IMG/VR virus record: IMGVR_UViG_3300033182_001404
Span: 1-39,112 of that record
Length of the DNA: 39,112 nt
Source: a virus
Direction: 5' to 3' (one strand)
Positions 27,690 to 32,757 of the stretch are shown one piece after another. Each line of letters starts with the position of its first letter. Positions within the stretch are counted from its first letter, which is position 1. The position numbers were made by a program, and so were the translations under genes. Below the pieces are notes generated by a model. It was given only the letters and a program-made list of their open reading frames with translations. It was not told the origin of the DNA and ran no database searches.

Positions 27690-28139
27690 ATGAGTTATAA
27701 AGGAAGATTCAAACCAAAAAATATCAAAAAATATAGAGGCGATCCGACCAAGATTACCTATCGGTCGTTATGGGAACTTCGTTTTATGAGGTACTGTGAT
27801 AACACTGCTGGTGTTTTGATGTGGGCTAGTGAGGAAGTCATTATTCCTTATCGTTCTCCAATAGACGGAAAGATACATCGGTATTTTCCTGACTTTTGGA
27901 TTCGTGTGAAAACAGTAGATGGGCTGATAGAAGAGTCTCTGATTGAAGTCAAACCGAAAGCACAGACTCGTCCTCCAAAGGGTGGACCCCCAAAGGACGG
28001 TAGGAAAAGAAGACGATATATTGCAGAGGTAAAGACTTGGGGAGTAAATGAAGCAAAATGGAAGGCTGCTCAGTCTTTTTGTGACATCAAGGGTTGGAAA
28101 TTCAAAATCCTGACAGAAGATGACCTGACAAAATTTTAG
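27690..28139 (+). CDS. 4: Head completion nuclease-fold protein gp4
   Basis: 149 residues, the length of T4 gp4 (150). Motifs follow the TnsA/PD-(D/E)xK nuclease layout: SLWELRFMRYCD (E29), RYFPDFWIRVK (D68) and LIEVKPK (E86, K88), then WGVNEAKWKAAQSFCDIKGW. T4 gp4 (gp50/65) acts late in head completion, making heads competent for tail joining. All predicted catalytic residues are present. It opens the plus-strand late cluster, divergent from gp48. No strong ribosome site is seen before the ATG, and the start is chosen because the family begins with a SYKGRFKPKN-like sequence. Confidence 0.85.
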   Translation: MSYKGRFKPKNIKKYRGDPTKITYRSLWELRFMRYCDNTAGVLMWASEEVIIPYRSPIDGKIHRYFPDFWIRVKTVDGLIEESLIEVKPKAQTRPPKGGPPKDGRKRRRYIAEVKTWGVNEAKWKAAQSFCDIKGWKFKILTEDDLTKF

Positions 28140-28159: not shown

Positions 28160-28759
28160 ATGGCAGAAGAACTAAATGAGGGCTTCCTCAACAAACTCAA
28201 GACATCTATAAAAACCAGTACTGCAGGAGCCAAGGCAAGAGCAGCAGGAGATTGGTTTCGGGAAAAGGTGAAACAAGCTACATCCAGTGCTAAGATGAAA
28301 GCGGTAACACCGACACAGCTCTTGAAAAGACAGGAAGAACAGAACATTATCATGGGAAAGATGTTTTTCTATAAGTATGATCCAAAATGGGCAAAGAAGT
28401 TGCCTTATTGGGATATGTACCCATTAGTCTTTCCATATGAAAAAGCAAAGGGTGGTTTTTATGGATTGAATTTACATTACATACCACCGCGAGATCGTGC
28501 AATACTCATGGATCAACTAAAACAGTACGCCTCAAATAAAAAATTTGACAAAACAACCGAGTTGAGTTTGACTTATAATTTATTGAAACGGTACGGCAGG
28601 GCAGTACCATGTGTGAAAAGATATTTGTTTGATCACGTAGTATCAAACACGGTCACCATTGATGCCGATGAATGGGAAATTGCAATCTTCCTTCCAGTTG
28701 AAAGATTCCAAAAACAATCATCCTCTGTAGTTTACAGAGACAGTAAGAGATATTACTAA
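28160..28759 (+). CDS. Conserved T4-like phage structural/assembly protein, function not assigned
   Basis: 199 residues. The first 60 are basic and helical (KLKTSIKTSTAGAKARAAGD). The rest has motifs I associate with a protein conserved in marine T4-like phages: MGKMFFYKYDPKWAKKLPYW, DMYPLVFPYEKAKGGFYGLN, LHYIPPRDRAILMDQL, then DEWEIAIFLPVERFQK. Its location between gp4 and a tail-tube-fold protein suggests a head- or tail-completion role such as end protection (gp2-like), but this is positional inference only. Its stop overlaps the next start by one base (TAATG). Confidence 0.65.
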   Translation: MAEELNEGFLNKLKTSIKTSTAGAKARAAGDWFREKVKQATSSAKMKAVTPTQLLKRQEEQNIIMGKMFFYKYDPKWAKKLPYWDMYPLVFPYEKAKGGFYGLNLHYIPPRDRAILMDQLKQYASNKKFDKTTELSLTYNLLKRYGRAVPCVKRYLFDHVVSNTVTIDADEWEIAIFLPVERFQKQSSSVVYRDSKRYY

Positions 28760-29307
28760 TGTCTAATTTTTCTCCCGACACACTTAGATCAGCTGTTACT
28801 CCAAAGGGTGGATTTGCTCTAAACAATAAGTATGTGATAGATTTCTCTCCACCTGTAGGTGGTGTCCCTTGGGATAATACAATCGTAAATAGATTACGAA
28901 TTATGGCAGAAACAGCTGCTATGCCACCTAAGAGTCTAGCAACATCAGAAAAAAACATATATGGTCCTGTGTTTCAAATACCCTATCGCTCTACTTTCGT
29001 TGAAGTTGCAATAAACTTTATACTCACTGATAGTATGGAAGAAAAGAAATTCTTTGACTCATGGCAGAATTTTATTTTAGATCCTGTAACAGGAAATCTA
29101 AATTACCATTCAGATTATGTTTGTGACCTCACTATTTCTAAATTTTCTACTAGTGCAGTAGATTTCAATGATCCCCCAACCTATAAAATAAAACTTATAG
29201 ATGCTTGGCCAAGTATAGTAGGTGAAGTGGGCCTCACATTTTCTGGTGGTGAAAATCATGTCACCTTACCTGTAACATTCCAATATAAAAAATGGATATC
29301 TTTATAA
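28759..29307 (+). CDS. Tail-tube-fold protein, probably gp54-like tube initiator
   Basis: 182 residues. The pattern NKYVIDFSPPVGGVPWDN, LRIMAETAAMPPKSLATSEK, NIYGPVFQIPYRSTFVEVAI and KKFFDSWQNFILDPVTGNLN is that of the gp19/gp54 tail-tube family (first strand, the ETAAMPP turn, the Y-G-x-x-x-x-I-P hairpin, then the E-x-F-x-x-W helix). T4 gp19 has 163 residues and gp54 has 320. Because gp26/51 and the tape measure follow, a baseplate tube-initiator role (gp54) seems more likely than the main tube (gp19). I cannot separate the two from sequence alone. Confidence 0.65.
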   Translation: MSNFSPDTLRSAVTPKGGFALNNKYVIDFSPPVGGVPWDNTIVNRLRIMAETAAMPPKSLATSEKNIYGPVFQIPYRSTFVEVAINFILTDSMEEKKFFDSWQNFILDPVTGNLNYHSDYVCDLTISKFSTSAVDFNDPPTYKIKLIDAWPSIVGEVGLTFSGGENHVTLPVTFQYKKWISL

Positions 29308-29329: not shown

Positions 29330-30064
29330 ATGGCTTTGCCGAAACTCAATGTAATGACACATACACTCAAACTTCCCTCCACTGGTGAAGAGTTGACCTA
29401 CAGACCATTCTTGGTCAAGGAAGAAAAAATCTTGATGATGGCTATGCAGAGTGGAGAAGCAAAAGATATGATTCGTGCATTGAGAGAGATTATCTCTTCA
29501 TGTATTGAAACTGACATTGATGTGAATTCATTGCCAATGTTTGACATTGAATATATCTTCCTTCAACTGAGAGCAAGATCGGTTGGAGAAGTGATTGACA
29601 TCAATTACTCACTAAAAGAAGATCCCTGTGATAAATTACAAAATGCATCATGCAATTATCAAGTATCTATCAATCTAGATGACATTGAAATAGAAAAAGA
29701 TCCAAAACATAAAGATTTGATTGATTTGAATGATACTATCAAAGTAAAAATGAGATATCCAAAAATTGAACTGACAGCAAGAATGGCAGGACTAACAGGT
29801 GACGAGTTAGTCAATAAAACATTTGAAATGATTGCTGACAGTATAGAATACATTATGGAAGGAGTAGAGATTCATAAATCCTCAGACTATACTCAGAATG
29901 ATATTGAAGAATTTTTGAATTCTCTTTCAACCAATCAATTCAAAAAAATTCAAGAGTTTTTTGAAACAATGCCCAAACTAAGAAAAAACATTGTTGCTAC
30001 ATGCTCATCATGTGGTAAGAAAAATGAAAGAACTCTTGAGGGTATGGCAGATTTTTTCGTATAG
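29330..30064 (+). CDS. 26: gp26-like baseplate hub/tail assembly chaperone (zero-frame product)
   Basis: 244 residues. LPKLNVMTHTLKLPSTGEEL, TYRPFLVKEEKILMMAMQS and FDIEYIFLQLRARSVGEVID are diagnostic of the T4 baseplate protein family of gp26. A C225-x-x-C228 pair (ATCSSCGKK) near the C-terminus and further Cys at 100 and 108 suggest metal binding. The gene has a TAGGAG ribosome site. The stop (TAG 30062-30064) lies 3 bases after a U_UUU_UUC heptamer, so part of translation probably continues in the -1 frame into the gp51-like extension. In T4, gp26 and gp51 are needed for hub assembly; a tape-measure chaperone role is inferred from the layout. Confidence 0.8.
   Translation: MALPKLNVMTHTLKLPSTGEELTYRPFLVKEEKILMMAMQSGEAKDMIRALREIISSCIETDIDVNSLPMFDIEYIFLQLRARSVGEVIDINYSLKEDPCDKLQNASCNYQVSINLDDIEIEKDPKHKDLIDLNDTIKVKMRYPKIELTARMAGLTGDELVNKTFEMIADSIEYIMEGVEIHKSSDYTQNDIEEFLNSLSTNQFKKIQEFFETMPKLRKNIVATCSSCGKKNERTLEGMADFFV
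30052..30058 (+). promoter_or_regulatory. Programmed -1 ribosomal frameshift site U_UUU_UUC
   Basis: In the gp26 frame the codons read GAT TTT TTC GTA TAG, so T-TTT-TTC is a canonical X_XXY_YYZ slippery heptamer. A Shine-Dalgarno-like GAGGG (30038-30042) lies 9 bases upstream, a spacing like that of the dnaX frameshift stimulator. A 12-base palindrome (GAGTCATGACTC, 30069-30080) lies 10 bases downstream and could form a short stem. A -1 slip gives a 307-residue fusion. Confidence 0.7.
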
Positions 30065-30252
30065 GGCTGAGTCATGACTCCTTGGCGAACCACTATACTA
30101 CAAACTTCGCTATGATTCAGCACCATCACTGGAGTCTGACTGAACTTGACGACATGATACCGTTTGAAAGGCACATCTATGTTGAGATGCTTTCAAACTG
30201 GATAAAAGAAGAAAATGAAAGAATTGAAGAACAAAACCGTAAAAGAGGGTAA
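30058..30252 (+). CDS. 51: gp51-like extension read in the -1 frame after gp26
   Basis: After a -1 slip at 30052-30058 the frame reads 64 codons, RIGLSHDSLANHYTTNFAMI followed by QHHHWSLTELDDMIPFERHI and YVEMLSNWIKEENERIEEQN, to TAA at 30250-30252. The LTELDDMIPFERHIYV core is the usual pattern of tail assembly chaperone C-terminal parts and gp51-type proteins (SL-x-ELE-x-MxPWE-x-x-IY). The only in-frame ATG (30112) has no ribosome site and would lose GLSHDSLANHYTTNF, so translation by frameshift is favoured over a separate 46-residue gene. The stop abuts the tape measure ATG (TAA-ATG). Confidence 0.7.
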   Translation, partial: RIGLSHDSLANHYTTNFAMIQHHHWSLTELDDMIPFERHIYVEMLSNWIKEENERIEEQNRKRG

Positions 30253-32757
30253 ATGTCTGAAGAAGTTACTATTGTAAACTCAAAAGATTTAGCTAATAAC
30301 ATTGGAAATTTAGTATCAGTTCAATTTAATAACAGTATCAATAAACTGATAGCAAATCAAAATGCAATATCTTCTACTCAAAAAATATTAGATCTAGAGT
30401 CCTCAAGAGAACAAGCAATTTTGTTTCAAAGGATGTTATCATCTTTAGAAAATTTTAAAGCAAATATTACTTTAGATGCTAAAAAAGATGGTGATACTGG
30501 ACTATTGGGCTATTTGATAAAAGGTCTCGGTCTTCTAGGTAGTGGTATGTTAGCATTCATGGGTGGCTTTGCTTCAGGGTATTTTGAAAACTTCAAAAAA
30601 ATAATCATTGATCCCATATTCAAGGCACTTGAACCAATAATTGATCTGGTGAAAAATGCAGTAACTAAAGTAGGAGATGCATTTAAAGCAGATGTTCTAG
30701 ATCCATTTAGTAAAAAAATTGATGATATTAAAGCATTATTCGGCCCAGATGGATCAATAGGAAAATTCTTCACTAAAGTCAAAGACTTTTTCAACACAAA
30801 ATTACTAGAACCTATAGCAACTAAAATTGATGATATTAAAGCACTATTTGGCCCAGATGGATCAATAGGAAAATTCTTCACTAAAGTCAAAGACTTTTTC
30901 AACACAAAATTACTAGAACCTATTAGTTTGGCAATAGATGATATTAAAGCACTATTTGGCCCAGATGGATCAATAGGAAAATTCTTCACTAAAGTCAAAG
31001 ACTTTTTCAACACAAAATTACTAGAACCTATTAGTTTGGTGATAGATGATATTAAAGCATTATTCGGACCAGATGGATCAATAGGAAAATTCTTCACTAA
31101 AGTCAAAGACTTTTTCAACACAAAATTACTAGAACCTATTAGTTTGGTGATAGATAATATTAAAGCACTGTTTTCAGCAGAAGGTGGAACAACAGTCGGT
31201 AAAACATTAAATAAAATTAAATCATTTTTTACTGGCAGTTTTGGAAACACGATTACTACAGTGATTGATTACTTCAAAGAATTCAAATTTGAAGATTCCT
31301 TTATCGGTAAGACTTTATCTAAAGTCAAAGGATTTTTTGGGACTACTGCAGGTGAAGGTGGTATCTTTTCCAAAATTACTGATTTCATTAGCCCACTGAC
31401 AGATTTCAAACTTCCAGATGGGGTATCTAAAATTTTAGGCGGTATCGGAAAAATATTTGGTAAAGTATTTTTTGTGGTTGATTTGTTTATGGGATTCTTT
31501 GCCGCATTTGAAGCATTTGAAGAAACGGAAGGAAGTCTTGCAGATAAAATTATCGCAGCAATCAAAGCATTTATTGATGAAGTCATATTTGGTCTTCCGA
31601 ACTTTTTGATTGATCTCGTTGGTAAGGGTGCTGCAGCAATCTTCAAATTATTCGGTCAAGAAGATGCAGCAGCCAACATAGAGAAGGTAACTGAAAACTT
31701 TAGTTTAATGGACGTTCTATCAGAAAATTTTGAAATCTTAGTAAATGAACTTCCTAACTGGATTGACAAAATATTTGATTTTGATTTCAAACTCCCAGAT
31801 GGGGTATCTGAAATTTTAGGTGGTATCGGAAAAATTTTCGGTAAAGTATTTTTTGTGGTTGACTTGTTTATGGCATTCTCTACTGCATTTGAAGCATTTA
31901 ATGAAACGGAAGGAAGTTTTGCAGATAAAATTATCGCAGCAATCAAAGCATTTATTGATGAAGTTGTATTTGGTCTTCCAAACTTTTTGATTGATCTTGT
32001 AGGGCAGGGTGCTGCAGCAATCTTCAAATTATTCGGTAAAGAAGATACAGCAGCCAACATAGAGGAAGCAACTAAAGACTTTAGTTTAATGGACGTTCTA
32101 TCAGAAAATTTTGAAAAATTATTAGATGGAATTTCTAAATTTTTTGATAATTTATTCAGTATAGATGTAAATTCAATCATCAAATCTATTCCTGGCGGTG
32201 AAACTTTGATGAAATTATTTGGTGCTGGTGAATCAAGTAAAGCAAGAACTCAATTAGCATCAATCGGTTTAGAACAAGGATCAACTGATTTTGGTAAATG
32301 GGATGTTGATATAGAAGAACTAAGAAATAAAATTCAAGGAATGAATAAAGAACAACTTGAAATGATACAAAATAACATAGCTAGTTTAGCCATGTCAGAT
32401 GAGATTGATAACCTTAAAGAGGTTGAGGAAGTACTTGCAGAAAAAGCAAGAGGGTTTAAAACTGGTGGATTAGTTGAAGGGACGGGATTAGCAGTGCTTC
32501 ACGGGACACCATCTCAACCTGAACTGGTACTAGACAATCAGGCTACTGCCGTATTTATGAAAGCCGCACAATTACTAACAGGTTCTCAAAATATGATAAT
32601 GTCACAATCTTCACAACCAGTGGTTATCAACAACATTGATAACAGTCAGAGAAACCCTGTCATTTCCAACCAGGCAACTCAAATTAAAGTTCCTGACTCT
32701 CCACGACAGGGTGAGACTACTCTGGCCATGATGAACATGGCCTACGCAATGGGTTAA
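30253..32757 (+). CDS. Tail tape measure protein with internal tandem repeats
   Basis: 834 residues. A hydrophobic Gly-rich segment lies at about 83-110 (LLGYLIKGLGLLGSGMLAFM), as in tape measures. Residues 157-300 are four near-identical 36-residue repeats (IDDIKALFGPDGSIGKFF core) plus a diverged fifth. Residues 385-638 are two copies of a 127-residue unit (FKLPDGVSKILGGIGKIFGK start). The C-terminus (FKTGGLVEGTGLAVLHGTPS, then QPELVLDNQA) is typical of marine T4-like tape measures. It follows the gp26/gp51 chaperone frame directly. At about 1.5 angstrom per residue the protein would span roughly 125 nm. It is the functional counterpart of T4 gp29 (590 residues). Confidence 0.85.
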   Translation: MSEEVTIVNSKDLANNIGNLVSVQFNNSINKLIANQNAISSTQKILDLESSREQAILFQRMLSSLENFKANITLDAKKDGDTGLLGYLIKGLGLLGSGMLAFMGGFASGYFENFKKIIIDPIFKALEPIIDLVKNAVTKVGDAFKADVLDPFSKKIDDIKALFGPDGSIGKFFTKVKDFFNTKLLEPIATKIDDIKALFGPDGSIGKFFTKVKDFFNTKLLEPISLAIDDIKALFGPDGSIGKFFTKVKDFFNTKLLEPISLVIDDIKALFGPDGSIGKFFTKVKDFFNTKLLEPISLVIDNIKALFSAEGGTTVGKTLNKIKSFFTGSFGNTITTVIDYFKEFKFEDSFIGKTLSKVKGFFGTTAGEGGIFSKITDFISPLTDFKLPDGVSKILGGIGKIFGKVFFVVDLFMGFFAAFEAFEETEGSLADKIIAAIKAFIDEVIFGLPNFLIDLVGKGAAAIFKLFGQEDAAANIEKVTENFSLMDVLSENFEILVNELPNWIDKIFDFDFKLPDGVSEILGGIGKIFGKVFFVVDLFMAFSTAFEAFNETEGSFADKIIAAIKAFIDEVVFGLPNFLIDLVGQGAAAIFKLFGKEDTAANIEEATKDFSLMDVLSENFEKLLDGISKFFDNLFSIDVNSIIKSIPGGETLMKLFGAGESSKARTQLASIGLEQGSTDFGKWDVDIEELRNKIQGMNKEQLEMIQNNIASLAMSDEIDNLKEVEEVLAEKARGFKTGGLVEGTGLAVLHGTPSQPELVLDNQATAVFMKAAQLLTGSQNMIMSQSSQPVVINNIDNSQRNPVISNQATQIKVPDSPRQGETTLAMMNMAYAMG
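30721..31152 (+). repeat. Four 108-bp direct repeats in the tape measure gene
   Basis: Repeat starts at 30721, 30829, 30937 and 31045 give an exact 108-base period (36 codons); a diverged fifth unit starts at 31153. The first about 90 bases of each copy are almost identical, with changes such as gcattattcgg versus gcactatttgg. The differences cluster in the last 15 bases (atagcaactaaa versus attagtttggca). This indicates recent duplication or conversion. Confidence 0.92.
31405..32166 (+). repeat. Two 381-bp direct repeats in the tape measure gene
   Basis: The unit starting at 31405 is repeated at 31786 (127 codons each). Both copies encode a hydrophobic core with FGKVFFVVDLFM and DKIIAAIKAFIDEV and the end NFSLMDVLSENFE or DFSLMDVLSENFE. 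Copies differ at scattered codons and are older than the 108-bp repeats. The second copy degrades toward its 3' end. Confidence 0.85.

Follow-up and report, generated by a model that had tools for sequence, protein, structure and literature searches.

Probable -1 frameshifting between gp26 and a gp51-like domain in the tail assembly chaperone gene of an uncultured T4-like marine phage

The gp26 locus and its -1 reading frame

The 39,112 bases of the window that we analyzed are a virus fragment from IMG/VR (IMGVR_UViG_3300033182_001404), for which the direct DNA matches among isolate phages are no more than patchy, in the range of 66-74%. From position 27690 onwards its plus strand carries, in order, genes for a head closure protein (gp4-like), a DNA end protector (gp2-like), a tail tube protein (gp19-like) and gp26, followed by an 834-aa gene in the position of the tape measure. 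The tail tube gene (28759-29307) was recognized by its matches to phrog_45 (tail tube, E 3e-31) and phrog_3629 (E 4e-24), and directly downstream of it lies gp26 (29330-30064), whose standard translation yields a product of 244 aa that matches PF12322, T4_baseplate (E 5e-64), and phrog_150 (E 5e-70). The 834-aa gene (30253-32757) probably encodes the tape measure protein, as judged from its position and a weak similarity to phrog_167 (tape measure, E 0.0013). By these profile matches, the gene order is tail tube, gp26, gp51 and tape measure, which is the location expected of a tail assembly chaperone (TAC) gene.

The last codons of gp26 read GCA GAT TTT TTC GTA TAG, so that a slippery heptamer, T_TTT_TTC (U_UUU_UUC in the message), sits at 30052-30058 in phase for a -1 slip and directly ahead of the TAG stop codon (30062-30064), from which it is separated by one codon, just as the first-pass annotation of this DNA had proposed. 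That annotation was also correct in describing the -1 frame as open for 64 codons: it runs from 30058 to a TAA at 30250-30252, is translated as RIGLSHDSLANHYTTNFAMIQHHHWSLTELDDMIPFERHIYVEMLSNWIKEENERIEEQNRKRG, and would give a fused product of 307 aa. The frame had been said to end one base before the tape-measure ATG, but the TAA in fact abuts the ATG at 30253 with zero bases between them. A chaperone-like, that is gp51-like, identity had been suggested for the -1 frame, and this was borne out by a match (E 2e-27) to phrog_634, the “baseplate hub assembly catalyst” (gp51) profile, in which positions 59-118 of the 121 are covered; in addition, the match of the gp26 profile phrog_150 continues into the -1 frame. 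The frame is without a ribosome-binding site of its own. It had been credited with a single internal ATG lacking a ribosome site, and the second half of this statement held whereas the first did not, as there are three in-frame ATG codons (30112, 30154 and 30187) and a TTG (30082), none of them with a Shine-Dalgarno-like sequence.

How distinctive is this heptamer within the window? The genes of the window contain 59 in-phase heptamers of the form X_XXY_YYZ, and the one at 30052 is the only one that opens a long -1 frame (64 codons, with the next longest at 28) and the only one that lies within 15 nt of the stop codon of its own gene.

The junction in relatives and competing explanations

We compared the gp26-gp51 junction first among 97 distinct junctions from IMG/VR, the window included, and then in a set of 266 distinct junctions enlarged by further relatives and isolate records. 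In the first set, all 97 junctions place gp51 at -1 relative to gp26, carry T_TTT_TTN in phase and have an open fused frame. The enlarged set is equally uniform, with 266/266 for the -1 position of gp51 and likewise 266/266 for the in-phase heptamer (TTTTTTC in 188, TTTTTTT in 66 and TTTTTTA in 12), and the distance from the end of the heptamer to the gp26 stop is 0-24 nt throughout. Relatives with an independent gp51 start and without the heptamer were also sought, and there were none among the 266 distinct junctions. The base preceding TTT TTN is T in 97/97 junctions of the first set, though the codon that it completes encodes Asp, Ser, Asn or Ala; background usage would lead one to expect T at the codon end in 38-78% of cases (log10 P about -20 if the junctions are treated as independent). 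That this T is fixed while the amino acid varies indicates a constraint on the nucleotides beyond that imposed by the protein alone. The same arrangement of heptamer and -1 gp51 is found in the Kyanoviridae isolates S-ShM2, S-WAM1, P-TIM40, Mosig and C48C1, as well as in Schizotequatrovirus ValKK3, Aeh1, Cronobacter phage LPCS28 and Ochrobactrum phage ORM_20. This comparative evidence supports the main proposal of the first-pass annotation, namely that a programmed -1 frameshift joins gp26 to a gp51-like domain after the logic of lambda G/GT.

Several observations were made on annotation and on more distant phages. None of the 14 phage records that we examined has an annotated CDS joining gp26 and gp51; gp51 is given in phage records as a separate short ORF, often N-terminally cut, or is missing. 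Members of the Ackermannviridae (Klebsiella phage T765, 2288-2462, and our loci L415-L433) have a gp51-like domain in the -1 frame after gp26, and their junction has a conserved non-canonical site, ATT TTC ATY TAA, without an X_XXY_YYZ heptamer. A TAATG overlap occurs in just three of the Ackermannviridae loci, so re-initiation cannot account for all of them. Vibrio phage D533 likewise has a gp51-like -1 frame (near position 2163), with the sequence CTT TTC AAG TAATGG, no standard heptamer and an ATG that overlaps the gp26 stop. Stenotrophomonas phage IME-SM1 (NC_054952, about 2256-2331) reads GAT TTT TCG, that is five T where its relatives have six, with the result that gp26 reads on in another frame and the gp51 part disappears; the five-T run is probably a homopolymer sequencing error.

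Could the split between gp26 and gp51 be explained without a slipping ribosome? One alternative is that an extra base is introduced by RNA polymerase slipping within the run of T, such that some mRNAs carry gp26 and gp51 in one frame. The site is indeed a homopolymer and 63 of the 266 junctions have a run of eight T, but 200 have just six, and the transcriptional slippage described in bacteria concerns runs of about nine A or T (PMC5009743). Moreover, slippage by the polymerase predicts neither an in-phase X_XXY_YYZ heptamer, nor a Shine-Dalgarno-like element at 7-9 nt, nor structure beginning 7 nt downstream, and we consider it very unlikely. Slightly less probable still is separate translation of gp51, whether by re-initiation past the gp26 stop or by use of an internal start. 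Short gp51 ORFs are annotated as separate in public records (e.g., S-ShM2, Mosig, C48C1 and ValKK3) and the window has the three internal ATGs noted above; yet most of the 97 junctions have no start codon before the conserved LSHDS motif, an ATG, GTG or TTG lies within 8 codons of the slip in only 14/97, and initiation at the internal starts, which are mostly without a Shine-Dalgarno sequence, would remove conserved residues. Separate translation also leaves the conservation of the heptamer unexplained.

A further possibility is that what is one continuous gene has been split artificially, through an indel introduced into the T-run during sequencing or assembly. Homopolymers are error-prone, and the IME-SM1 record seems to be one T short. 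For the locus as a whole, however, an indel is improbable in the extreme, given that the 266 distinct junctions come from many independent assemblies, isolate genomes among them, that all of them are -1 and none is an in-frame fusion, and that the heptamer is constrained at the codon level. The reading that we prefer is a -1 slip by the ribosome, and it is in this light that we consider the sequences to either side of the heptamer.

Elements flanking the slip site

The GAGGG that had been pointed out 9 nt upstream of the heptamer is present at 30038-30042, resembles a Shine-Dalgarno (SD) sequence and is a putative 5′ stimulator. Of the 266 junctions, 250 carry a purine-rich, SD-like run no more than 22 nt 5′ of the heptamer, and in 246 the spacer is 7-9 nt. 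In the window GAGGG overlaps the Glu-Gly codons of gp26. The Glu codon at the SD-like place is GAG in 51/76 cases, compared to 454/2148 (21%) elsewhere in gp26; because the sequences are related, the P value of this enrichment (Fisher, 5e-17), in which kinship is ignored, is indicative only. Judged by this codon choice, the SD-like element is under selection at the nucleotide level, and it is likely to act as a 5′ stimulator of slippage.

Downstream of the heptamer, the first-pass annotation had drawn attention to a palindrome at a distance of 10 nt. The palindrome, GAGTCATGACTC, is there (30069-30080) but is not itself the conserved element: it arises from the LSHDS codons and is broken in relatives (e.g., GAGTCACGATTC) in which the pairing of the two stems described below is kept, and we therefore rejected it as a conserved stimulator. 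What it does cover is most of the 5′ arms of two predicted helices. Stem S1 would form between GCUGAGUC (30066-30073), which begins 7 nt past the heptamer, and GAUUCAGC (30114-30121); S2, the pseudoknot helix, between GACUCC (30076-30081) and GGAGUC (30131-30136); and an inner hairpin, S3, between GCGAA (30085-30089) and UUCGC (30106-30110). With S1 at 8-9 bp, S2 at 6 bp and crossing S1, and S3 within, the predicted element would be an H-type pseudoknot with a spacer of 7 nt, a first loop of 2 nt and a last loop of 9 nt.

Comparison with related phages argues for this structure in the clade of the window. The 75 nt past the heptamer fold more stably than synonymous-codon shuffles, with a mean z of -3.2 among the nearest relatives (27 sequences, each below -1) and of -1.4 among 70 others. 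In 60 relatives, the helices pair in 96% of cells (94-98% by helix, with S1 at 98%), as against 29-45% when the partners are slid. Full pairing also exceeds what synonymous resampling gives, for S1 (82% of clade members vs 3-7%), for S2 (71% vs 9-19%) and for S3 (76% vs 34-39%). Double changes from GC to AU occur at two pairs of S3, in 7 and 12 sequences, and compensatory variants of S2 are found in neighbours (GATTCC:GGAATC, AACTCC:GGAGTT and GAGAGT:ACTCTC). Within the clade of the window itself double changes are few. As most S1 pairs are invariant, we rate the pseudoknot as likely in this clade rather than as shown. Single-strand folding of the window alone favoured an alternative, S2-extended hairpin, and an Rfam scan of the window returned no family.

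Consensus folding of 88 wider relatives recovered no common structure, and the pseudoknot is thus not family-wide; the S1/S2/S3 element is restricted to the clade of the window and other elements occur in the wider family. A group with the heptamer T_TTT_TTA (loci L146, L157, L136 and L134) has, in place of the pseudoknot, a perfect 6-bp hairpin, ACTATC-TCAC-GATAGT (or with GCAT as the loop), 8-23 nt past the heptamer. It is conceivable, and to our minds an evenly balanced proposition, that the site in the window's clade is driven by a three-helix pseudoknot inside the gp51 frame together with the SD-like element, and that in sister clades a heptamer of this type is combined with different elements downstream, so that the slip site would have stayed fixed as its stimulators were replaced.

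Products of the gene and their counterparts in known phages

What are the two products? The older literature regards gp26 and gp51 as two distinct proteins, hub components or chaperones (PMC3004832), and names T4 as the exception to G/GT frameshifting (PMC5009743). In T4-type phages (teqskov and Maestro), unlike the window, gp26 is without a -1 extension and the long form has its own gene, gp51, of 249-251 aa on the opposite strand. This T4-type gp51 aligns with the frameshift product from residue 14 to residue 245, across the junction (hhalign probability 98.6, E 1e-15; HMMER E 3e-13), and more weakly with its own gp26 (hhalign E 2e-8). Since the alignment with the frameshift product is end to end, the long product has its counterpart in T4 gp51, and T4 gp26 is the homolog of the short one.

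A second line of evidence comes from an AlphaFold model of gp26 (pLDDT 87), for which the alignment rows were drawn from IMG/VR only. In a comparison with 564 solved chains by VIA-align, residues 1-94 of the model were matched best by 3fgx (Z 8.0) and by 2ob9, which is the tail assembly chaperone of HK97 (Z 7.7), with the next at 4.8. The superposition on 2ob9 (rmsd 3.6 over 84 aligned residues) is a moderate one, as a Z below 8 can reflect a common arrangement. A Foldseek search of the PDB with the gp26 model gave no significant E-value, and sequence searches of the PDB with the gp26 and gp51 profiles found no match. The model is thus suggestive of a resemblance between the N-terminal domain of gp26, of about 90 residues, and the HK97 chaperone fold. 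Both parts of the frameshift product are homologous to TAC families (PF12322 and phrog_150 for gp26, phrog_634 for gp51). Taken together, the end-to-end homology of gp51 and the suggested likeness of the N-terminal domain to the HK97 chaperone lead us to regard gp26 as TAC-N and the gp26-gp51 fusion as TAC-NC, in the manner of lambda G and GT.

We are highly confident that 29330-30252 is a TAC gene, in this case from a marine phage of the T4-like kind, and encodes a short TAC-N and a -1 frameshifted gp26-gp51 TAC-NC. From its sequence, the phage very probably makes these two versions of a chaperone from one gene by a -1 slip on six T's. Most ribosomes would read gp26 through to the TAG and produce the short chaperone, TAC-N, of 244 aa. 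A minority would be held on U_UUU_UUC, with the SD-like GAGGG behind them and folded RNA from 7 nt ahead, would slip one base back on the two Phe codons, and in so doing would bypass the stop and append the 64-residue gp51 domain, giving TAC-NC of 307 residues. We infer that the slip takes place on the ribosome and at a low efficiency of this kind, and that the RNA structure has a part in it. By analogy with lambda gpG and gpGT, TAC-N, in many copies, would coat the product of the next gene, the tape measure protein, TAC-NC, in a few, would recruit tail tube subunits, and both would depart before the tail is completed; binding to tape measure and tube is accordingly a property that we would expect of the products from the lambda case. 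Such a lambda-like mode of working is suggested by the position of the gene, by its products and, less firmly, by the fold.

The slip site of lambda differs from the U_UUU_UUC of the window. Otherwise lambda G/GT and the TACs of other long-tailed phages (Xu, Hendrix and Duda, 2004; Atkins et al., 2016, PMC5009743) share with the window the place before the tape measure. In lambda there is also a -1 slip near the end of the first ORF, with a short product in excess and a rare long one, as is proposed for the window; the two lambda products act on the tape measure ahead of the polymerisation of the tube (PMC5009743). We found no sequence similarity between gp26 of the window and the lambda TAC, and gp26, unlike the latter, has an extra C-terminal part that is beta-rich and contains cysteines. 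The TACs of the Vandenendeviridae and Andersonviridae share a conserved -1 T-run site at the 3′ end of TAC-N and a mis-annotated downstream ORF, but differ in their motif, GTTTTT, and belong to different phage families (PMC12846349).

The abstract of a study by Vladimirov and colleagues is said to describe frameshifting as conserved in several T4-like groups and T4 as using genes 26 and 51. PMC12846349 credits Vladimirov et al. (2022, Virology 566:9-15) with poly-T -1 frameshift signals in the TAC-N genes of T4-like phages, and the PRFect paper (PMC10885494) cites Vladimirov, Gautam and Davidson (2022) for T4-like phages in which the genes for the short and long chaperones are separate. By these citations, the genes and the poly-T -1 signal are the same as in the window, as is the division into groups that frameshift and a T4 group whose genes are separate (PMC10885494); the phage of the window differs in being an uncultured marine relative. 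Because the poly-T frameshift had already been so attributed, the mechanism is not new here, and the window provides a well-documented further example from an uncultured phage. To this we add the SD-like statistics and the clade-specific stem and pseudoknot, for which we found no description in the literature covered, and which may or may not be contained in Vladimirov et al. (2022).

Our comparisons, which span several hundred uncultured and isolate genomes, indicate that T4-like marine phages are built for making their tail chaperone by -1 frameshifting. These phages are among the commonest viruses of the sea. The gp51 that is called as a separate short gene, or missed, in cyanophage and pelagiphage records would accordingly be the C-terminal half of a gp26-gp51 protein. 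In addition, the aligned stimulators offer ready material for testing how exchangeable RNA elements may tune a slip site that stays fixed.
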